In this document: one piece after another, positions 12,785 to 45,077 of the stretch
How positions within the stretch are numbered: position 1 is the stretch's first letter
Layout: each line of letters opens with the position of its first letter
From: a virus
Virus record (IMG/VR): IMGVR_UViG_3300021962_000036
Location: 1-64,000 of that record
Length of the DNA: 64,000 bases
Strand: one strand, 5' to 3'
Notes under the pieces: model-generated
Databases searched by the model: none
Seen by the model: only the letters and a program-made list of their open reading frames with translations
Told to the model about the DNA's origin: nothing
Made by a program: the position numbers and the translations under genes

Positions 12785-13054
12785 CTATAAGTTGCTAAAG
12801 AAGTTCATCAGGAAATGACTTGTATATAAACCCAGCAAGCTACCAATTGTTGCTCCTGTAGAATAAAAGATTCTGTCAGAAAGTGTTCCAAACACAATCT
12901 TCTTTATGTTATAGGACCATACCATGGAAATGGCAAATGCTGCAAACATAACCCCAAGATATATGTCTTTGGCTAGGAAGCATGTGTTTATGGCTACAAA
13001 GTAAACTTGAATAATACCTGTTGCTGTTAGTTTAATCTTGGAAAGGTTCATCAT
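12785..13054 (-). CDS. Membrane protein, 89 aa, about three spans
   Basis: Hydrophobic segments near residues 11-30, 32-50 and 62-85 (GATIGSLLGLYTSHFLMNFF) predict an inner-membrane protein. It overlaps the end of the zinc-binding gene by 23 bases. A holin role is possible from size and topology but there is no lysin beside it. Confidence 0.65.
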   Translation of the reverse strand: MMNLSKIKLTATGIIQVYFVAINTCFLAKDIYLGVMFAAFAISMVWSYNIKKIVFGTLSDRIFYSTGATIGSLLGLYTSHFLMNFFSNL

Positions 13055-13502
13055 CGTAATCTAGTTTAGAGGGTTTGACTTTAATTTTGTTTAATATATA
13101 GGTTGAATTTTTAGTCTTGAAACGTAGCTCATTTGCAGATATTCTTTCAAAACTTTGAACCTGAGTAGTTAACCATGTATAAGAAGCACCATACTCAGAG
13201 TCTACTATACAGGAAAACCCAACCTGGGGTCGTCTATAAAGTTTTTCAGCTCTTCCATCTTCTTTCCATTTAACCCATCTTATAGATTTTCCTGTAATAA
13301 ATTTACCATCTTCCACTCTCATTAAAGAATATTTGATGCCAAATCTACACACAATGCATTCTTGAGCAACCATCTCCTGTTTGCCTAACATTGCGTCTTT
13401 TTCAAACTGTGACATAGTAGCACCAGTTTTAATAATTCCTCTACACTTGGAACATAATAATGCTCCTTGGCCTCCGTTGAATTTAAAGATTGCTTTCTCC
13501 AT
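13032..13502 (-). CDS. Zinc-binding protein, 156 aa
   Basis: CSKC near residue 17 and CIVC near 50 form a split zinc knuckle, followed by a C-terminal beta-rich region (GKSIRWVKWKEDG; YILNKIKVKPSK). It overlaps the thioesterase gene start by 20 bases. No family is recognised. Confidence 0.7.
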   Translation of the reverse strand: MEKAIFKFNGGQGALLCSKCRGIIKTGATMSQFEKDAMLGKQEMVAQECIVCRFGIKYSLMRVEDGKFITGKSIRWVKWKEDGRAEKLYRRPQVGFSCIVDSEYGASYTWLTTQVQSFERISANELRFKTKNSTYILNKIKVKPSKLDYDDEPFQD

Positions 13503-30098: not shown

Positions 30099-30707
30099 AT
30101 GGCAATAAAACATATTCTGGCATTAGATATTCCAGACACAGCATGTGATACTATTCTAAAAATTTGGGATAGTTCTAGTTATGCTGAGACGTTACCTGTA
30201 GACTGTCCTAGGTTAGACATATTCTTTCCTGGATTTGCAGAACCCTTATATATTACAGAACCAAAGATTGCTCCAGGTTTTGCCCTTAATTTGAATGCTA
30301 AAGACTTTAGTTTACAACATCCTCAAGCAGAGCATTTGATTTCTTTGCCTGATGGTTTATATACAATCAAATACAGTGTTTCTCCTAATGATAAAGTATT
30401 TGTTGAATATTATCATTTGAGAACAACAACAATAATGAATGCGTATTACAAGGAACTTTGTAAAGTACAATTAGCACCTTGTGAACCTTCACCAGAGCAA
30501 CATCAAAAACTACATGATTTACGTTATATAAAAATGTACATTGATGCTGCAAAAGCTAAGACAGAATATTGTCATTCACCTAAGCAAGGTGTTGAAATGT
30601 TAGCATATGCTGACAAATTGCTTAAAAAATATATGACTGGCTGTTGCGTTAGTTGCAGTGGATCACACGGAGGTTATACTCATGGATCACATGGTCATCA
30701 TCACTAA
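30099..30707 (+). CDS. Hypothetical protein with Cys/His-rich tail, 202 aa
   Basis: The N-terminal half is beta-rich, the middle helical with several Cys (LCKVQLAPCEPS). The last 25 residues hold CCVSC, then SHGGYTHGSHGHHH, a natural metal-binding tail. It is the first gene of the surface-protein block. No family is recognised. Confidence 0.7.
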   Translation: MAIKHILALDIPDTACDTILKIWDSSSYAETLPVDCPRLDIFFPGFAEPLYITEPKIAPGFALNLNAKDFSLQHPQAEHLISLPDGLYTIKYSVSPNDKVFVEYYHLRTTTIMNAYYKELCKVQLAPCEPSPEQHQKLHDLRYIKMYIDAAKAKTEYCHSPKQGVEMLAYADKLLKKYMTGCCVSCSGSHGGYTHGSHGHHH

Positions 30708-30734
30708 GACAAATTATTTAAAACCAATTATAAG

Positions 30735-30923
30735 ATGAACTGTCAAAACTGTGGATCAAAATTATCATGTGGATGTCAAAAAAGAATTGCATCAGATGGT
30801 AAAGAAGTATGTGGCACATGTGCTGCAAACTATGAGAATCAACTTAGATTGAAAGCACTAACTGATAATCAAGTGGCTAAATACCCTTTGATTACAGATG
30901 TAAATAAAACAAACAACACATAG
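30735..30923 (+). CDS. Small zinc-binding protein, 62 aa
   Basis: CQNCGSKLSCGC and later CGTCAANYENQ give a zinc ribbon of the four-Cys type. The stop is TAG, which shows this codon is not reassigned. It ends one base before the next gene. Confidence 0.65.
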   Translation: MNCQNCGSKLSCGCQKRIASDGKEVCGTCAANYENQLRLKALTDNQVAKYPLITDVNKTNNT

Positions 30924-30924
30924 T

Positions 30925-31149
30925 ATGGATCCAATAGAACGCATAAGTGAAGTATTTGCTGATTCAGTATTTGTTTCCTACAAGAAAACACGTTATGGTT
31001 TAAAATCTTGTAAGATGACAATTGACGCAGAATACGCAAATGATTTGAGAGAACTTTATTTAAGAACTCTTGAAATGAACACTTGTGGGTTAACTTTTGG
31101 TGGTGGTTGTTCAAAAATTAGTATTGAAGAAAAAATCAAGACAATATAA
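30925..31149 (+). CDS. Hypothetical protein, 74 aa
   Basis: A helical chain (ANDLRELYLRTLEM) with a Cys/Gly-rich patch (CGLTFGGGC). It shares TAATG with the following surface-protein gene, which suggests translational coupling. Function unknown. Confidence 0.6.
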   Translation: MDPIERISEVFADSVFVSYKKTRYGLKSCKMTIDAEYANDLRELYLRTLEMNTCGLTFGGGCSKISIEEKIKTI

Positions 31150-32711
31150 TGAAACCTATAAACAGCAACTTAAGATTAAAACCTGAAGATGGATGCACAA
31201 AAGTATCATCTTCATGCGTTATCTGGCAAGGTCCAGATATTCCTTGTATTGAATTATGCAAAGGAGACTCAATTACAGATGTTGTTTATGAGTTAGCAAT
31301 GAAGTTGTGTGAAATAACTTCTGGAGTTATTGATCTTAGTACACTAGATTTTAAATGCTTAGTGCCAACAGGTATTCCTGAACCAACTACAATTATTCAA
31401 GCATTACAGTTGCTTATTGATAAGCAATGTTTTTTTGAAGAAAATTGTTGTGATGATGGACCTGGTGGTAGTACAGTACCTATTCCTATTTCATTACCTC
31501 CATGTTTATATTTTACAGAAGATGGAGATGAAATAACATCTTTACTTCCAACTGATTACAGTTCTTATTTAGCAAGTAAAATTTGTGAAATTATAGATGA
31601 TATTACAAGTATCAATTCTACCATTGCAACATTGCAAAATAGAGTCACTACATTAGAAGCAAGTTCTGGTGGAGGTGGTGGTACTGGAGCAACAATATCT
31701 GTTGTTGCACAGTGTGCTAGTAATCCTATACCTGGAACAGTTGTTCCTATTGGCCAAGCATTTTCTGCATTTGAAAGTAAGTTTTGCCAATTAACAACAA
31801 TTCTTGGAAGCAATGCTGCGTTATCAACTGCGATTGGTACAGAATGTGCAGGATTAGACTCAGCTCCACAACTAGTCAATGGTGATAATACAATGTCAGA
31901 AATTGCAGGTTGGGTTGCTTCTCCATCAACTTTGTCAGAAACCATAGTAAACATGTGGTTGACAATATGTGATATGAGATCTGCAATTGTAAATAGTTTG
32001 AACACTACAATACCATGTATTCCAATTCCTGTATCTAATATTCAAATAACAGATGTAACAAGCACAGGTTCTAAAATAACTTGGTCTGCTCCAAATAATG
32101 GAACTGTGTCAGAATCACCTTTACAATATTTACTAAAAGTATATGAGTGGAATGGTTCATCAACAGTAGGTTCACCTATTGTTAGTGTTATCAAACCTTT
32201 TGGAACAAATTTTCATGACATAACACTTGTTCCTGATCCAGCAAAAGATTATCAAATACAAATTACAGCTGAATATTCTTGTGATCTGTCTACTGTTGCA
32301 ACTACCATTGGTAAAATTGCTTTGACAACTGTCCTATATTGTGTAGCTGTAACAGATGTTGCATATGATGAAATCAATCAATTATGTGATGGTAATTCAT
32401 ATGTTACAAAAAGAAGAAAAACAACCCTTACACTAAAAGATATAGTTTCAGGTAATCCTGTAGCAAATACTTTAGCACCATTTACTGCTGTAATTAATTA
32501 TGACATAGATGGAGATTGTGCTTTAATTACTTCAGAATCAATTACAAAAACATTTGCAACAGGTGTTTCTAGTGTAGATCATATTTATGAAATGGAAAAA
32601 TATGTTCAATGTGCATCAGATCCATGTGCTCCTAAGATTAAATCCTACAATTGTATTGGAAGTATCTCAAGCACAAGAGCTGTAGCATGTAGTGGTGAGG
32701 TAACTTGTTAA
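31149..32711 (+). CDS. Surface or fibre-like protein with FN3-like domain, 520 aa
   Basis: A Cys-rich N-terminal module (SSSCVIWQGPDIPCIEL near 22) is shared with the next large protein. A coiled-coil stretch (residues 154-172) and a Gly-rich hinge (SSGGGGGTGAT) follow. The region around 290-395 (PIPVSNIQITDVTSTGSKIT, then QYLLKVYEWNG) looks like fibronectin type III. The C-terminus has more Cys. This layout fits a head or tail fibre whose N-terminus attaches to the virion. Confidence 0.65.
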   Translation: MKPINSNLRLKPEDGCTKVSSSCVIWQGPDIPCIELCKGDSITDVVYELAMKLCEITSGVIDLSTLDFKCLVPTGIPEPTTIIQALQLLIDKQCFFEENCCDDGPGGSTVPIPISLPPCLYFTEDGDEITSLLPTDYSSYLASKICEIIDDITSINSTIATLQNRVTTLEASSGGGGGTGATISVVAQCASNPIPGTVVPIGQAFSAFESKFCQLTTILGSNAALSTAIGTECAGLDSAPQLVNGDNTMSEIAGWVASPSTLSETIVNMWLTICDMRSAIVNSLNTTIPCIPIPVSNIQITDVTSTGSKITWSAPNNGTVSESPLQYLLKVYEWNGSSTVGSPIVSVIKPFGTNFHDITLVPDPAKDYQIQITAEYSCDLSTVATTIGKIALTTVLYCVAVTDVAYDEINQLCDGNSYVTKRRKTTLTLKDIVSGNPVANTLAPFTAVINYDIDGDCALITSESITKTFATGVSSVDHIYEMEKYVQCASDPCAPKIKSYNCIGSISSTRAVACSGEVTC

Positions 32712-32740: not shown

Positions 32741-34342
32741 ATGTATCCTAATCAATATTGTCATCCTTGCACAGAGCCAACACCATGTGTTCCAGCTCCA
32801 CCACCACCAGATTGTATAGGTGAACCATGTGAAGAAATTGTTCTAGACACATGTGTAAGATATACAGGACCTGCAATTCCATGTCTTGGAATTACTACAG
32901 GTGCAGATCTTAGTCAAGTACTACAAATTATTGCAGCAAGACTTTGTGATTGTTGTGATGGAACACCTCCAGTTGTAAATTGCGTAGTTTCTGCATGGTC
33001 AGAATGGTCAGAATGTATAGATGGTGTTCAGACAAGAACTAGAACAGTAATTCAAGCTCCACAAAATGGCGGTACTGCTTGTCCTCCATTAATAGAAACA
33101 AGATCATGTTGTGAGCCTGTTGACTGTGTAGTATCTGCATGGAGTGATTGGTCAATTTGTGATGGGGATGTTAGAACAAGAACAAGAACTGTTGTTACGC
33201 CAGCATCATGTGGTGGAGTAGCTTGTCCTGTTTTAATTGAAACAGAATCTTGTAACTTACCATTGCCATGTCAACCAATAACAAATATTCTTGGTAGATC
33301 ATTAGATTGTGAAACAATTGAAGTATCATTTTCAGATGGAGCTACAGGTCCAGCAACAAGTTTAGTTGCAGAATTAGTTAGTACAAGTGCACCTTCTGTT
33401 GTTTTACAGTCATTTACTTTCACAACAACTGGCGCTGCTGCATCATATTCTCATACATTTACAGCTGTTGCTCCTGGTTCATACCTTATAAAAGTTTATA
33501 AAACTAGTGCAGCAGGAACTTGTGATGTTGTTACAACTTCTGCTGTAACAGTTGAAGTTTGCGCAACATGTGTGCCATTAACAGACATAGATGTTTTATC
33601 TGACAATTGTGAAACTTTACAAATTTCATTAACTGATGATGGAAACGCTACTGTTTTGTATGCTGAATTATTTAACAATAATGCACCAACTATAGTTGTA
33701 TCTACCAAAACATGGACTCCATTAGGATCAGCTACTGTTTATAGTCATACTTTCACAGGATTAACTCCAGGAAATTATTTTGTAAAAATTTACAAAGATG
33801 CTGGTACTGTAAAATGTGATACAGTTGTAACAAGTGCTGTTTTAGTACAAGGATGTCCTGTAGATTGTGTTGTTTCAGATTGGTCTGCATGGTCTGAATG
33901 TATTGAAGGTGAACAAACTAGAACAAGAACAATAGTTACACCTGCATCAAATGGTGGAACTCCATGTCCTGTATTGACAGAAACACAACCTTGTGAAATA
34001 CCATGTGTCCCTTTAACAAACTTTACAGCAATATCTGATAATTGTGAAACGTTAACCGTTTCAGCAGTAGATAATGGAGAAGCAACAGATTTACATGTAA
34101 CATTGTATAATGCATCTAACCCAACAGTGCCTTTATTTACTCATGATTGGATTCCTACTGGAAATCCTGGATCATACACACATACATTTACAGGTCTTTC
34201 AGGAGGAACTTATATTGCAATAATTTACAAATTGTCAGATCGTTCAACTTGTGATCCAATATCATCAGCAAATGTTGTTGTTGAAACATGTAAATCAGCA
34301 TGTCCTGCACCAACAGGAGTATCAGCTACAGTAACAGCTTAA
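32741..34342 (+). CDS. Surface protein with three thrombospondin type-1-like repeats, 533 aa
   Basis: The N-terminus (residues 1-78) is Cys/Pro-rich and includes the same CVRYTGPAIPCLGI module as the previous protein. TSP1-like repeats with WS.WS.C, TRTRT and a closing Cys occur at about 80-123, 128-171 and 375-419. Three beta-sandwich repeats of about 95 residues (each with a CETL/CETI and YSHTF/YTHTF motif) lie between and after them (about 175-273, 274-371, 422-521). The last residues, CPAPTGVSATVTA, look like the start of an FN3 domain. The role is likely binding at the host surface or gut matrix. Confidence 0.75.
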   Translation: MYPNQYCHPCTEPTPCVPAPPPPDCIGEPCEEIVLDTCVRYTGPAIPCLGITTGADLSQVLQIIAARLCDCCDGTPPVVNCVVSAWSEWSECIDGVQTRTRTVIQAPQNGGTACPPLIETRSCCEPVDCVVSAWSDWSICDGDVRTRTRTVVTPASCGGVACPVLIETESCNLPLPCQPITNILGRSLDCETIEVSFSDGATGPATSLVAELVSTSAPSVVLQSFTFTTTGAAASYSHTFTAVAPGSYLIKVYKTSAAGTCDVVTTSAVTVEVCATCVPLTDIDVLSDNCETLQISLTDDGNATVLYAELFNNNAPTIVVSTKTWTPLGSATVYSHTFTGLTPGNYFVKIYKDAGTVKCDTVVTSAVLVQGCPVDCVVSDWSAWSECIEGEQTRTRTIVTPASNGGTPCPVLTETQPCEIPCVPLTNFTAISDNCETLTVSAVDNGEATDLHVTLYNASNPTVPLFTHDWIPTGNPGSYTHTFTGLSGGTYIAIIYKLSDRSTCDPISSANVVVETCKSACPAPTGVSATVTA

Positions 34343-34366
34343 CAAAAAAATAAAAAAAATAAACAA

Positions 34367-35149
34367 ATGGCAACATTAACTATAAATTTTACACCAGTAT
34401 CAGGAATATCAAGTTATGAAATTTGTTATAGACCTGTAGGTGCAACAACTCCTTTTATTTGTATAGAAGATTCCGCATCACCTGTTGTTATAACTTCAGG
34501 GATTGAATGTGGTGTTGCATATGATGTGACAGTAAGAACAAACTGCCCTCCAGGAGAATATTTATCAGACCAAAGTACATCTGCTGTTGCAGTAGCTACA
34601 GCACTAGAATGTCCTCCTGAAATAGTATGTGTATCTTACACAATATCAACATCATCAGCTCAAGGACAAACTTCAGCTTATATTGATTGCATGGATCAAA
34701 TTCAACAAGTAACTGTAGGAGGTGTTAGTGGATATGACGCAACTACATTCTGTGCAAAAGAAGGTAGCGTTGTAATAGCTGGTGAATGTAATCTAACAAT
34801 TAATGGCCCATGTGGTGACCCAGTAGGTCCAATTACAGTAACTGGTGCGTATGGTTCAATGGAACCATGTATTGGCGGTACAATTGATGATTATATGAGT
34901 GCTAGTGTTAGTTTAGATGCTCCAGTTTCTGTAGACACAAATTTTAACGTAAATGTTTTATGGACTCAGTTAAATGGTGGCAGTTGTGCCAGTCCTAATA
35001 CTCAATCATTTACAGTTCTTGTACTAGCTGGGCAAGTATCTGGTCAATTAAATGCATGTAATCAAGGAGCTTATTTTGCACAAGGAGCATCTATTTGTGC
35101 AGCTCAAGTAATGGGTCATGACAACACAGTTGACATAATTAATTACTAA
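34367..35149 (+). CDS. FN3-like/beta-sandwich surface protein, 260 aa
   Basis: Residues 1-85 continue an FN3 fold from its second strand (TLTINFTPVSGISSYEICYR); the first strand appears to lie at the end of the previous gene, in the same frame. The rest (90-260) is Cys-containing beta structure with Gly turns. One TAA and 24 bases of A-rich sequence separate the two genes. The A-rich leader before ATG fits a normal Bacteroidetes start. Likely a partner of the previous protein on the virion. Confidence 0.65.
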   Translation: MATLTINFTPVSGISSYEICYRPVGATTPFICIEDSASPVVITSGIECGVAYDVTVRTNCPPGEYLSDQSTSAVAVATALECPPEIVCVSYTISTSSAQGQTSAYIDCMDQIQQVTVGGVSGYDATTFCAKEGSVVIAGECNLTINGPCGDPVGPITVTGAYGSMEPCIGGTIDDYMSASVSLDAPVSVDTNFNVNVLWTQLNGGSCASPNTQSFTVLVLAGQVSGQLNACNQGAYFAQGASICAAQVMGHDNTVDIINY

Positions 35150-39091: not shown

Positions 39092-39462
39092 TGGCTGCTA
39101 AAATATTTAAAAAAAAAATAAATCTTGCTATCTATGAAGCTGTAGTAAACTTACGCGTTGTAGAAAGTATGCAAGACATGCAAGAGTATCTTGACAAAAA
39201 AACTAAATCTTTAGTAGATGTTACAGATAGTTATGGATGTGTTTTTGATTTACCTGGTGCAAAAGGATTGGAATATTATATTGTTTATGAAAAAGATAAA
39301 CTTACTATAAATTTAATCTCTCATGAGGTATATCATTTAGCTATTAGAATTTTAACAAACATAAACATAACAGATGAGGAATCAACTGCATGGTTAGTAG
39401 GTTACTTGACAGAAACAATATATAAAGTATTACGTCAGAAAAATTACAACATCAAAGACTAA
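39091..39462 (+). CDS. Small HExxH (zincin-like) protein, 123 aa
   Basis: The motif SHEVYHLAIRIL places HExxH at about residues 78-82, followed by an acidic residue pair (DEESTAWL) that could supply the third ligand. Before it lies a beta hairpin (YYIVYEKDKLTINLI). This fits a minimal zinc metallopeptidase. It overlaps tail genes on both sides as TAATG, so it may process a tail protein or act on entry. The motif is short, so activity is unproven. Confidence 0.6.
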   Translation: MAAKIFKKKINLAIYEAVVNLRVVESMQDMQEYLDKKTKSLVDVTDSYGCVFDLPGAKGLEYYIVYEKDKLTINLISHEVYHLAIRILTNINITDEESTAWLVGYLTETIYKVLRQKNYNIKD

Positions 39463-42400
39463 TGAGCGAAAATTTTACAAATACAAGTGCTGCCAAAACT
39501 AATGCCTTCAACAAAGGTATGGTTAAAGACTATACTGATATTTACATTTCAGAAGGTCTTTGGACTAATGCAGTAAATGCTATAAACAATGCTCACTATG
39601 GTGAGACAGGCTCTATTGGCAATGAGCCATCTAATAAGTTTTGTGCAAACGCAACTTATGATGTTATTGGTATTTCTCACAAAACTAAAACTTCTTGGGT
39701 TGTATTTTCTACAGATGATGTTTCTTCTGAGATTGGTATTTTTGATGAAAGAGATTGCTCATATACAGTAATTGTAAATGATCCATGCCTTGGTTTTAAG
39801 AAAACAAACTTGATCACAGCAGTTACAAAAGAAAACTATGACTGCACACATTCAACATATTTTCAGGATAACTTAAATCCTGATAGAGTTTTAAACTTAG
39901 ACAGAGTTCCTTATAAAACAACAGGAAACAACTTGTCTCAGGATCCAGATTGTTTTATTCCTGAATACACAACTGACTTAGATTGTGATGCACTAAGATT
40001 ACATCCTCTTGTAACACAACCATGTGTAAATGTAAAAAAAGCACAAGGAGCTGGCCAATTAAATAATGGTAGTTATATGGCAGTTGTAGCTTATTCTGAA
40101 AACGGAATAAGACTTACAGATTACTCACTACCTAGTCAACCACAAGCATTGTGGGATCATACTGGAATTGGTGGATCTTTGGATATTACTATTGACAATC
40201 TAGACAAAGACTATGATGAGTATGAACTTGTTGTTATTGCTGTAATTAATCAACAAACTATAGCAAAAAAGGTTGGTTATTATTCAACTAGGCAAACATC
40301 AGTACATCTTGACTTGTACAATCAAAGTTTAGAAACTGTTGAACTTGCAGTAATACCTTTAAAATCAATAGTTTATGAAAAGAGTGAAAAAATGCACTCT
40401 GTAAATAACTATCTTATCAGAACAGGAGTTACTACACAACCATACTTTAATTATCAAAAACAAGCAAATGATATAAAAGTGCAGTGGGTTGCTGCACAAT
40501 ATCCTACAGATTATTACCATAATGGAGGTAATGTTACAGGATACATGCGTGATGAGGTGTATGCCTTTTTCATTAGATGGGTTTATAAAACAGGAGCAAG
40601 AAGTGCTTCTTTTCATATTCCTGGTAGGTTGTCTACAGGAGTTGACACAAACCCTGTATCAACACCTGACGTTATTTATCCTACAGAAACTAAAGTGTGG
40701 CAAGTATATGATACTGCAACAAAATATTTAGCATCTGGTACTACCAAAGATGGTGGTGTTATCATTGCTAAAGGAGACATGGCATACTGGGAATCAACAG
40801 AAAAATATCCTGATGACAAACCAGATGTTTGGGGTACACTATGTGGTAAACCAATTAGACATCACAAAATGCCTTCAAATGAAACTATACATATCCATAG
40901 TCAAGGAGGAGATTATATTTATAATTTAGGTGTTGAGTTTTCAAATATTCAACATCCTGTAGATGAGACACTTACTCCAATTAAAGATATTGTAGGATAT
41001 GAGATATTAAGAGGATCTAGAGAAGGAAACAGAACTATTGTTGCGAAAGGTTTATTTAACAACATGTTTGAGTTTAATATTCAAGGAAGTACTGGAAGAA
41101 AAGGTTTGTTCCAGAATTATCCTTACAATGATATTAGACCAGATAACTTCTTAACAAACGATTTTTCAGTTCTTGATTCTGGTAGAGGAAGTCAATCTGG
41201 TGTTGAGTCAGCATCTAAACTTGACACTCACAAAAGAAACTATTTATCTTTTCATGCTGTAGAAACAAATTTTGTTAAACCATATATTGGTTCTAACTAC
41301 GTAAAAGTATATACAGAAGAAAGAGGAACTGTAACAGGTAAGTATGAGTTTCCACATAAACATCCTAAACATGTAATTTTAACTGATGGTGCGTTTGTAA
41401 CAGCAGGTATTGTTGGTTTAGGAATTGCACTTGTACAAGCTGTTGGTAAAACAACATTGACATCAGAAGTTGCTCCATGGGCTTTAGCTTTAGGTACTGG
41501 ATTTTATTATGGTGGAACACAAGTAAGTAAAGAATCAGCACCAGCATCTATTATTGGTGATTTAACAACATATGGTATTACATCAGGTCTTTCAGGATTT
41601 GGTGCAGGAAATGCCGCAGCTGCTATTGCATCTGTTGCAGTAATGATTGTTAGTGGTACTTATTATTGGGGACAAGCTACTGATCAAGTTTTGGATATAT
41701 TTAGAAAACTTGGTAAGGATAGACAATACATGCTTCAATACAATAGTCATGGATTCTATCATTCATATTCAGGCGTATCTAACTCTGCAGTACCTTCAGG
41801 ATTACCAAAAGCATTTAGAAGAAAGATTGCTGATTCAGGAGCAAAATATATTGGTTCTGGGATTCATGATTTAGATGCTACATATAGAATTAACAATCTT
41901 AATAGAAACAAATATGTAGCTATTAAATTAACTTCTGATTTACCAGATGTATCATCAACAATAGATAATACAAAACATAGAATTCAAGATGGTGGAATAG
42001 ATCGTTCTAATCCTACAAAAGAATCAATTAGTACAACAACAGTTGCATATTATGGTGCATTAAAAGTAGATTTTGAAAATCAGTATGGTCAATTAACATC
42101 AGTTGTTCAATTACCTACAGATTCTTGCATATACGCAACTGAACCACAACTTACAACTCTTTATACTACATCAACAATATTTGGTGGAGACATCTATATT
42201 AATAGATACACTGAAAAGAATCCATACATGTTCTTTAACACATGGATGTATGATATGCCAACTGGTACAGAATATGATTACAAAAATTATGTAAATGGTC
42301 CTGTTCCAAGATATTGGATAAACTTTGATAAATTTGATGTCACAGATTTTGATGTTAATATAAGTTTGTCAAATGGTGTAAGTTTTACAACGCCTAGTGA

Positions 42401-45077
42401 CTTCCATAGAATGGATAGAGCAGGTAGTACTGGTACATGGACTTTGAGAAACTGCTTTGCATATCTTTTCCATAACGGTATTAGAGACTTTTATACAGAA
42501 TCTGAACTTAACATGGCGTTTAGAGACTATGGTGAAGAAGATTTTCAAAAGTTCTATGATGTATATGGTAACTCATTTAATGATGAGGCTACTATGTTTA
42601 GATCAGATTTGATAACTAAACCAATATATAACAAATATGACTTATCACTTAGCACATCCAAGTTGTTTAACAACTTCGCGACATGGGGACAAATTCTCCC
42701 TAGGGACTATGACCCAGCCATATACAACACATGCTTTGAGTACTACCCTAAACGTGGAGTGTACTCTCTCCAACAGCAGTCAGGTCTTAAACGCGATAAC
42801 TGGAGAAACTTCTTACCTCTTAACTATAAAGATTTTGGAGGAAAAATCAACACAATAAAGTCACTGAATGGAACAGGTGCTATAATACTTTTTGAAGATG
42901 CTGAACCTACACAATTTGTAGGTGTTGATCAATTGCAGACTAAAGGTGGTGTAAAAATCACAATTGGTGATGGAGGATTGTTTCAACAAAACATGCAAAG
43001 TCTTGTAAATGCAGATGATGCGTTGGAGTATGGAGCATGCATTTCTTCAAGATCTGCAGTAAATACACCACATGGTTTATTTTATGCTTCTCAGAAGTCA
43101 GGTAAAATTATGCATTATTCTGGTGGCATTGATGAGATATCAAGAAATGGATTGAAGTTTTGGTTTGCTGAAAATTTACCTTCAGAACTATTACGTCAAT
43201 ATCCAGACTATCCATTATATGATAATCCAGTAGCAGGTATTGGAGTACAAGCAATTTATGATCCTCAATATGAATTAGTATACTTTACAAAGAAAGACTA
43301 TATTCCTTTGAGATCAGATTTACACTTTGATGACCCTTCTGGTGTACCATATTATATTTGTGGAACTACTGGTGATATTGACATACCATCTGAAATAGTC
43401 TCAACAAGTATGTTGGAAACTCCAACAACACTTGCTGAAGATCCAGATGCACCATGTAAAGCACCATTAGATTTAGTTTTTGTTATTGACATTACAGGAA
43501 GTATGGGAACTGTTTTAAATAACATTAAAACAAGTGTTGCTAATATTGCTACTGATGCTGTGACAAAATCAAATAATGATTATAGATTTGGATTAATAAC
43601 TGTGAATCAATCTGGTAGTGTTCTTAACGTTGTAAGAGAAGTAATGTCTGCAAATAATGTTGCAACATTTAACACTGCATTACAAGTTGTTACATTGGGA
43701 AGTGGTGGCGGTGAACCAGAACCTACAGACATAGGTGTTAAGATGGTATTAGATGGACAAGCAGGAGTTTTCAGATCAAATGCTATCAAAATGATTATTA
43801 TGGTTACAGATGCTAGACCATCTGGTACTGATGATGCTTATGTTGTAGGTGTTGATGATGTAAATGTTCAAAATGTTTCAAATCAAGCATTAGCTCAGGA
43901 TGTTTTAATATTCCCTATTGCAACAGGTTATGGAGTTAGTGGTCAATATGCATCTACTATTTTACCATTGCATGACATTTATGCAAATACTACAGGAGGT
44001 GTTGCAAGTCAATCACTTACTGGAATTGTAGCAGATATAATTGGTGATTCTATTTTAAATGTACCATGTCCAGAAGTACCATTAGAATGTACTTTTGAAT
44101 CTAATCCATATACTATAAATTTAGGACAATCAATAACGTTGACATGGTCTGTACTTGGTACACCAGAATCTGTAGTATTAATGCCAAATAATGTTGTGGT
44201 AAACGCAACAGGTTCATTGACAGTATCACCAGTTGTAAACACTATTTATCAATTGATAAGTACTAAAGGTGATGTAACAAATATTTGTGAATTAGAAGTT
44301 ATTGTAGTTCAACCAGAAATAATTCAGTGTCCATGCGCATATGATGATCCTAAATGTTTTACTCCATGTGGTTGGACAATCAGTTATGATCCAAAGCAAA
44401 AATTATGGATAAGTTTTCATGATTGGAAACCTAGTTTATTAATGCCTTCACATGAGCACTTCTTTACAATTAAAGGCAGAGGATTTTGGAAACACAATGA
44501 TAGATGGGATAGTTTTGCAAATTACTATGGAGTAGATTATCCATGGGAAGTAGAATATCCTGTGACAACACCTAATAGCGTAACAACTCTTAGAAGTATA
44601 GAATATACACTAGATGTATATAAGTTCTTCAATGATGGTAAAGATTTCAATCATGTACTTGATGAAAACTTTGACAGAGCTATTATACATAACTCAGAGC
44701 AAATGTCTGGTTTGTTGAAACTTAAAATTAAAGGTAAAAACAATCCTTTAGAATTGGTCAATTACCCACAAGCAACAGCTAATGGTATTGACATACTATT
44801 CTCTAAAGAAGAAAACAAATTTAGATTTAATCAATTTTGGGATATTACAAAAGATAGAGGTGAGTTTACAGGTAATGATACACCAATGTGGATTACAAAA
44901 TGTTCAGGTTATGAAAGATCAATTAATCCTAATTATGTAAACTACTTTAAGACACCAACTGAACATAAAAAATTCAGACACTATGGAAACAAAGTGATCT
45001 TACGCAAAAATGTAAGTGGTGACAAGAAAATGATTTTAAAACTAACAAATTCAAAACATCTTAATAGTTCAAGATAA
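39462..45077 (+). CDS. Giant tail (muzzle-type) protein with VWA and Ig-like domains, 1871 aa
   Basis: The first 630 residues are beta-rich and Tyr-rich. About 640-740 is a hydrophobic, Gly/Ala-rich region (FVTAGIVGLGIALVQAVG and later spans). From about 1333 a VWA domain is clear: LDLVFVIDITGSMG carries the MIDAS, ending in SNAIKMIIMVTDARP. An Ig-like domain (INLGQSITLTWSVLG) lies near 1540-1616, followed by a Cys-rich PCPC/CGW part. Size and place match the crAss-like muzzle. The VWA and Ig-like modules look like an insertion for adhesion. Confidence 0.7.
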   Translation: MSENFTNTSAAKTNAFNKGMVKDYTDIYISEGLWTNAVNAINNAHYGETGSIGNEPSNKFCANATYDVIGISHKTKTSWVVFSTDDVSSEIGIFDERDCSYTVIVNDPCLGFKKTNLITAVTKENYDCTHSTYFQDNLNPDRVLNLDRVPYKTTGNNLSQDPDCFIPEYTTDLDCDALRLHPLVTQPCVNVKKAQGAGQLNNGSYMAVVAYSENGIRLTDYSLPSQPQALWDHTGIGGSLDITIDNLDKDYDEYELVVIAVINQQTIAKKVGYYSTRQTSVHLDLYNQSLETVELAVIPLKSIVYEKSEKMHSVNNYLIRTGVTTQPYFNYQKQANDIKVQWVAAQYPTDYYHNGGNVTGYMRDEVYAFFIRWVYKTGARSASFHIPGRLSTGVDTNPVSTPDVIYPTETKVWQVYDTATKYLASGTTKDGGVIIAKGDMAYWESTEKYPDDKPDVWGTLCGKPIRHHKMPSNETIHIHSQGGDYIYNLGVEFSNIQHPVDETLTPIKDIVGYEILRGSREGNRTIVAKGLFNNMFEFNIQGSTGRKGLFQNYPYNDIRPDNFLTNDFSVLDSGRGSQSGVESASKLDTHKRNYLSFHAVETNFVKPYIGSNYVKVYTEERGTVTGKYEFPHKHPKHVILTDGAFVTAGIVGLGIALVQAVGKTTLTSEVAPWALALGTGFYYGGTQVSKESAPASIIGDLTTYGITSGLSGFGAGNAAAAIASVAVMIVSGTYYWGQATDQVLDIFRKLGKDRQYMLQYNSHGFYHSYSGVSNSAVPSGLPKAFRRKIADSGAKYIGSGIHDLDATYRINNLNRNKYVAIKLTSDLPDVSSTIDNTKHRIQDGGIDRSNPTKESISTTTVAYYGALKVDFENQYGQLTSVVQLPTDSCIYATEPQLTTLYTTSTIFGGDIYINRYTEKNPYMFFNTWMYDMPTGTEYDYKNYVNGPVPRYWINFDKFDVTDFDVNISLSNGVSFTTPSDFHRMDRAGSTGTWTLRNCFAYLFHNGIRDFYTESELNMAFRDYGEEDFQKFYDVYGNSFNDEATMFRSDLITKPIYNKYDLSLSTSKLFNNFATWGQILPRDYDPAIYNTCFEYYPKRGVYSLQQQSGLKRDNWRNFLPLNYKDFGGKINTIKSLNGTGAIILFEDAEPTQFVGVDQLQTKGGVKITIGDGGLFQQNMQSLVNADDALEYGACISSRSAVNTPHGLFYASQKSGKIMHYSGGIDEISRNGLKFWFAENLPSELLRQYPDYPLYDNPVAGIGVQAIYDPQYELVYFTKKDYIPLRSDLHFDDPSGVPYYICGTTGDIDIPSEIVSTSMLETPTTLAEDPDAPCKAPLDLVFVIDITGSMGTVLNNIKTSVANIATDAVTKSNNDYRFGLITVNQSGSVLNVVREVMSANNVATFNTALQVVTLGSGGGEPEPTDIGVKMVLDGQAGVFRSNAIKMIIMVTDARPSGTDDAYVVGVDDVNVQNVSNQALAQDVLIFPIATGYGVSGQYASTILPLHDIYANTTGGVASQSLTGIVADIIGDSILNVPCPEVPLECTFESNPYTINLGQSITLTWSVLGTPESVVLMPNNVVVNATGSLTVSPVVNTIYQLISTKGDVTNICELEVIVVQPEIIQCPCAYDDPKCFTPCGWTISYDPKQKLWISFHDWKPSLLMPSHEHFFTIKGRGFWKHNDRWDSFANYYGVDYPWEVEYPVTTPNSVTTLRSIEYTLDVYKFFNDGKDFNHVLDENFDRAIIHNSEQMSGLLKLKIKGKNNPLELVNYPQATANGIDILFSKEENKFRFNQFWDITKDRGEFTGNDTPMWITKCSGYERSINPNYVNYFKTPTEHKKFRHYGNKVILRKNVSGDKKMILKLTNSKHLNSSR

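Follow-up and report, generated by a model that had tools for sequence, protein, structure and literature searches.

A fibronectin type III (FN3) domain is split between two adjacent genes of a crAss-like phage, here called A and B, with strand A of the fold encoded at the end of gene A and strands B to G at the start of gene B. The split domain is quite likely a joint between separately translated fibre-type proteins, in which strand A is donated in trans, head to tail. The DNA analysed, referred to as the window, is a stretch of 64,000 nucleotides from a virus record of 119,946 bases (IMGVR_UViG_3300021962_000036). A match to the Crassvirus major capsid protein (PF23898, E 5e-33), and phrog matches to terminase, portal and major head protein in the same phage, place the source within the Crassvirales. 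The sharing of an FN3 domain between the two genes, proposed in a preliminary description of the DNA, is confirmed by FN3 profile matches, by the predicted fold and by the recurrence of the same end/start pair in relatives.

Gene A (32741–34342, + strand) is an open reading frame of 533 aa, the product of which carries a docking-like motif (CVRYTGPAIPC, 32852–32884), three spondin-like thrombospondin type 1 (TSP1) repeats (PF19028, TSP1_spondin, E 2.8e-36), Ig-like repeats and a C-terminal FN3 strand A. The protein ends in CKSACPAPTGVSATVTA, followed by a TAA stop (34340–34342, +), and the donor strand itself, CPAPTGVSATVTA, occupies positions 34301–34339 (+), as assigned from the AlphaFold model and the gain in the Pfam fn3 match. 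A 24-nt A-rich stretch (caaaaaaataaaaaaaataaacaa, 34343–34366, +), an ordinary translation leader, precedes gene B (34367–35149, +), an open reading frame of 260 aa in the same frame as A. Protein B is without the docking-like motif; its N-terminus is MATLTINFTPVSGISSYEICYRP and the gene opens with MATLTINFTPVSG, i.e. straight at FN3 strand B, the acceptor domain (34367–34612, +) comprising strands B to G only by profile, Pfam and AlphaFold. Upstream of A lies gene 1 (31149–32711, +), an open reading frame for a fibre-type protein of 520 aa with homologues in relatives, which has a docking-like motif of its own (CVIWQGPDIPC, 31215–31247), also contains an FN3 (Pfam fn3, E=0.0015) and is the carrier of the donor strand in other clades.

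Spondin-like TSP1 repeats are a module typical of animals; in relatives, similar repeats vary in number. The domain at the C-terminus of B (GSMEPCIGGTIDDHMGASVSLD...) is also found at the end of a tail-type protein of 1617 aa in another phage (locus L002, 468–5321), which points to a tip domain common to different tail parts. Elsewhere in the window (39462–45077) a protein of 1871 aa contains a von Willebrand A-like stretch (DLVFVIDITGSMGTVLNNIKTS...), identified by reading only.

The acceptor domain is recognisable as FN3 by comparison with solved structures. A profile of the acceptor domain matched 3t1w (E=1e-10) and 3mpc (2e-9), and its alignment starts at strand B of the solved FN3s, for example at residue 13 of 1fna. 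Against Pfam fn3, B alone scored 13.0 bits over profile positions 15–70, while the donor tail joined to B scored 22.4 bits (E 1.5e-4) over positions 2–70, slightly short of the curated cut-off of 25. Adding the donor raised the score of a second pair from 18.7 to 24.0 bits, of a third from 25.0 to 27.1 and of a fourth from no match to 13.0; a fifth pair gave no match either way.

The AlphaFold models are consistent with this assignment. When positions 34004–35146 were modelled as a single cis chain, with the TAA read as glycine and 26 aligned sequences, a seven-strand FN3 (A-B-C-C'-E-F-G) was predicted, in which strand A is the C-terminus of protein A (residues 104–115, the block 101–110 having a pLDDT of 96) and strand B is formed by residues 121–130. 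Foldseek matched this model to the FN3s of fibronectin, LAR and contactin in the PDB (E 6e-8). Modelled alone with the matching alignment rows, B gave six strands with strand A missing; the pLDDT of the FN3 blocks was 76–90, against 90–97 in the concatenation, strand B shortened from ten residues to three and the best PDB match had an E of 1.5e-3. In this cis concatenation, which is one chain rather than two, the last residues of A are thus predicted to complete the FN3 of B as strand A. A complete FN3 in B alone, together with the lack of a fused form in relatives, had been named beforehand as the outcome that would speak against a shared domain; what was found is B alone without strand A and, among relatives, both cis FN3s and a one-gene form. 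The two features of donor-strand complementation, an acceptor without one strand in its own chain and a partner with the matching terminal strand, are both seen, the second with exceptions among loci.

To place the junction in its wider context about 160 loci were fetched, anchored on gene 1 and the neighbouring exonuclease. The A-end/B-start pair recurs across many related crAss-like phages, at about 28 adjacent junctions, which argues that the split is beyond chance; split joints were found in L001, L006, L008, L009, L011, L024, L025, L029, L084, L119, L120, L123–L157 and L199. L001 has three consecutive genes with two joints, the first CPAPTNLTATVS and stop, then MATINLSWTPV, the second CPAPTNLSAVVS and stop, then MAQLTVNFTPV. 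In the L123–L157 group gene 1 ends in CPIISSVTATLT and, 1 nt after the stop, MNVTLNWTPGAG begins, and in L119, L120 and L199 the end of gene 1 resembles CGVPTGISVTLS and is followed 3 nt beyond its stop by MATLTINFNTT or similar. A DNA pattern for the acceptor start only, scanned over the whole viral collection, gave further split cases, including L184, a 66-kb contig (L315) in which APSAPTGLTLTVQ, a stop and 1 nt precede MATVSLTWTPS. This contig had no crassvirus capsid match, and its other genes look myovirus-like by reading, with sheath- and baseplate-like members. In bacterial genomes the pattern gave mostly chance matches, with one FN3-like start (L257) that had no upstream donor, and tblastn of A, B, the L006 middle protein and gene 1 against cultured phages gave no matches.

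In one clade donor and acceptor are not neighbours. In L109, L110, L111, L116, L121, L133, L135, L140 and L141 the donor is on gene 1, with a tail such as CPPPTSVVPSITIP before the stop, and the acceptor is on gene 3, with an A-less start such as MALVPATITVNFTSNYTGNHRVCYR; the intervening gene 2 encodes about 180 aa and has its own complete FN3. Since the whole of gene 2 lies between them, these halves cannot be fused by decoding. L139 provides a natural control. Gene 3 there starts with MCQSPTNLIINTSTTEISISW and has a complete FN3 including its own strand A, and gene 1 is without a donor tail; this gene of 93 aa (13039–13320) stands where relatives place the A-less acceptor.

Gain or loss of a donor goes with gain or loss of an acceptor, as called by hand, with weaker agreement from a blind score. 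The sample comprised 57 gene-1 clusters (70% identity), 15 with an A-less acceptor and 42 without, and a donor tail was present in 14 of the 15 against one of the 42 (Fisher 3e-11; hand-called, not blind). A blind donor score, trained on internal cis FN3 strands only and with a locus's own cassette left out, also separated acceptor from other clusters (MWU p 1e-5; 0.015 among cassettes of three or more genes). This score agrees with the hand calls but is weaker and is low for several pairs that are clear by eye. A PSSM built on 54 cis strands placed an upstream gene end in the top 6% of all gene ends for over half of 66 acceptors, and a fixed-spacing cis-HMM ranked the window donor eighth of 1272 C-termini, many other donors taking middling ranks.

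Many genes of the cassette, gene 1 and A among them, share an N-terminal motif, C-x-x-[WY]-x-G-P...C. It was found in none of the 20 A-less acceptors, against 77 of 144 other cassette genes; many of the non-acceptor genes that are without it have a Cys-rich start instead. Acceptors without the motif need another means of attachment, and a donor strand would supply one. From gene order, and by analogy with crAss001, the motif would dock the protein to the tail hub: in crAss001 trimeric gp22 has its N-terminus in the hub, with further fibre proteins attached that were not resolved (PMC10172136). Just before the fibre-type genes the window has a trio of genes (30099–31149; 202, 62 and 74 aa) that is conserved in this position in many relatives and is possibly a set of tail hub proteins. 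The 202-aa and 74-aa members (genes 30099 and 30925) were considered as homologues of the crAss001 hub proteins gp38/gp39 but no homology was detected, nor was any detected between gene 1 or the conserved upstream genes and crAss001 hub or fibre proteins.

In L005 a single protein of 586 aa combines docking, TSP1 and Ig parts of the type found in A with, directly behind the A-type Ig, the mid-domain of B, aligned over 76 residues at 45% identity, and then the B2 tip, which is the terminal domain encoded by the third gene of L006 (98 residues, 42% identity). This one-gene protein has no FN3 joint, and no acceptor was found in the 120-kb record of L005. On the usual reasoning from gene fusions, A and B are then parts of one assembly, and the split FN3 occupies a place in which a covalent link is also possible. 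On an exonuclease tree of 60 rows the split state changes at least five times, a number as low being reached in none of 500 shuffles, and L005 is nested in the clade of the window, L004, L006 and L024.

From the sequences and models, A and B probably snap together via one common fold. Protein A would dock to the virion by its N-terminal motif and end in a free FN3 strand A, while B would fold as an A-less FN3 with an open edge; the flexible C-terminal strand of A could then zip onto strand B of this domain, completing it in trans, so that B, itself without a docking motif, would project from the end of A as the next, distal fibre segment. FN3 folding proceeds from strands B, C, E and F, with A and G the last to pack (PMC4330816); a domain interrupted between strands A and B can therefore still fold, leaving an open edge. 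Middle proteins of relatives, with an acceptor N-terminus and a donor C-terminus, would extend the arrangement into chains of three or more, and the last protein of a chain would be an acceptor only, without a donor. Binding in trans, the order of the proteins in the virion, their location in the fibre and the stoichiometry are what we infer. Of the three explanations first put forward for the junction (a strand donated in trans, read-through to a fused protein, and an ancestral gene broken by a new start), donation in trans is the best supported by sequence and model, as donor/acceptor pairs are maintained, some pairs are non-adjacent and chains occur.

Decoding of A and B into one polypeptide with an intact FN3, by stop read-through, frameshift or ribosome bypass, would draw on the arrangement in the window, where the two genes share a frame and the halves are separated by one TAA and eight codons only. 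The original observation of a common frame, a single TAA and a 24-base A-rich leader is correct for this junction but does not hold in general: across the 28 adjacent junctions the gap ranges from −1 to 85 nt and all three frames are used (12/9/7). Tandem stops are common, and at seven in-frame junctions a ribosome would have to pass two or three stops. With a whole gene between donor and acceptor in one clade as well, read-through, frameshift and bypass are rejected as a general explanation. At the A/B junction itself no RNA structure was found at the leader of B (fold z −0.33), TAA is the normal stop of this phage (25 of 26 listed genes) and the leader, in the same style as the others, is the richest in A among the listed genes (fraction 0.83, against roughly 0.3–0.67), as expected if B initiates on its own; a fused product is very unlikely. 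A hidden upstream extension of B or of the other acceptors is likewise rejected. In 27 of the 28 junctions the acceptor frame is open for just 1–11 codons upstream of the ATG and thus does not conceal the missing strand; at the remaining junction, in L008, 22 codons are open and include one TTG.

It would also seem improbable that the halves are independent, with B's FN3 able to do without strand A and the strand-like end of A a relic of an ancestral fusion that a new stop and start divided. As B alone is still predicted, with fair confidence, to be a six-strand FN3-like domain, strand A may be dispensable, and A-less starts without an adjacent donor do exist. They are found in the L123 group (genes of 372 aa and of 75–231 aa), in the first genes of L120, L185 and L199, in the fourth gene of L006 and gene 3 of L138, and among small FN3 proteins, that of L203 for example. 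That a new start broke a fused gene may be how the arrangement arose, but this leaves unexplained the joint retention and loss of donor and acceptor across very diverged phages, the acceptors standing second or third in chains with two joints, the gene 1 donors with an acceptor two genes away and the repeated changes of state on the exonuclease tree. The C-terminal strand of A might instead complete something else, for example a neighbouring A in a trimer, with acceptors taking a strand from another protein or none. Donor-like ends without an adjacent acceptor, as in L155 and in the 184-aa gene of the L123 group, the tail of which is otherwise unused, would fit such an arrangement, as would the donor-less acceptors; the presence of donors tracks that of acceptors within the cassette, however, and the window's record holds one acceptor, which makes this a distinctly unlikely reading. 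Acceptors without an adjacent donor are the main weakness of the proposed joint in trans; they may share a donor or do without strand A. Two successive acceptor genes of L006 (8539–9075 and 9080–9847) follow one upstream donor and may be alternative tips competing for one strand. Upstream of gene 1, L120 (6809–9910) and L199 (5772–7676) have another series of A-less FN3 genes, the first member of which is without a nearby donor.

A wider role for strand donation is doubtful but can be put forward: the split FN3 might be a general snap-fit system for the exchangeable fibre segments of crAss-like phages, and the several acceptors per few donors in L006, the L123 group and L120 could then act as competing alternative tips, giving mixed receptor-binding tips from one genome. 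The joint in trans, if true, offers a ready explanation for the cohesion and tip swapping of multi-protein Crassvirales fibres. The tail fibres of crAss001, formed by gp22 and its partners, are likewise multi-protein assemblies, although how their parts are joined is not described (PMC10172136) and they have no detectable homology to the window's gene 1 or upstream genes. Both donor-strand complementation, in pili, and strand-A swapping, in cadherins and Tencon, are known. In largely open-access literature, nothing relevant was found on phage domains of the split FN3 type or on strands donated or supplied in trans in phages, and no published precedent was found for donation of FN3 strand A between phage proteins.

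In chaperone–usher pili an Ig-like domain missing strand G is completed by the N-terminal extension of its neighbour, a chaperone holding the groove beforehand. The likeness lies in a missing strand supplied by the terminal strand of a neighbour, in the head-to-tail chain and in the end caps. In contrast, in the phage it is strand A of an FN3 that is missing, the donor is C-terminal, and the subunits are phage proteins made in the cytoplasm; no chaperone was seen, the neighbours examined near A and B being phage head, fibre and exonuclease genes. For the type V (FimA/Mfa) fimbriae of Bacteroidota the proposed donor strand is the terminus of the next subunit, inserted after the first N-terminal strand has been vacated (PMC4789730). 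There a protease takes away an N-terminal strand that the subunit itself had in cis, whereas here the acceptor never encodes that strand, and the fold is different. Strand A enters a partner domain, as proposed here, in classical cadherins and in a crystallised FN3 scaffold that has, according to its entry title, a swapped N-terminal strand (Tencon, 4m6a). Those swaps are reciprocal, between like molecules that own their strand A, whereas donation from A to B would be one-way between different proteins. If true, this would be, as far as the literature was searched, the first natural one-way donation of FN3 strand A from one protein to a different one, and it would provide engineered split-domain tags with a natural, non-covalent counterpart.
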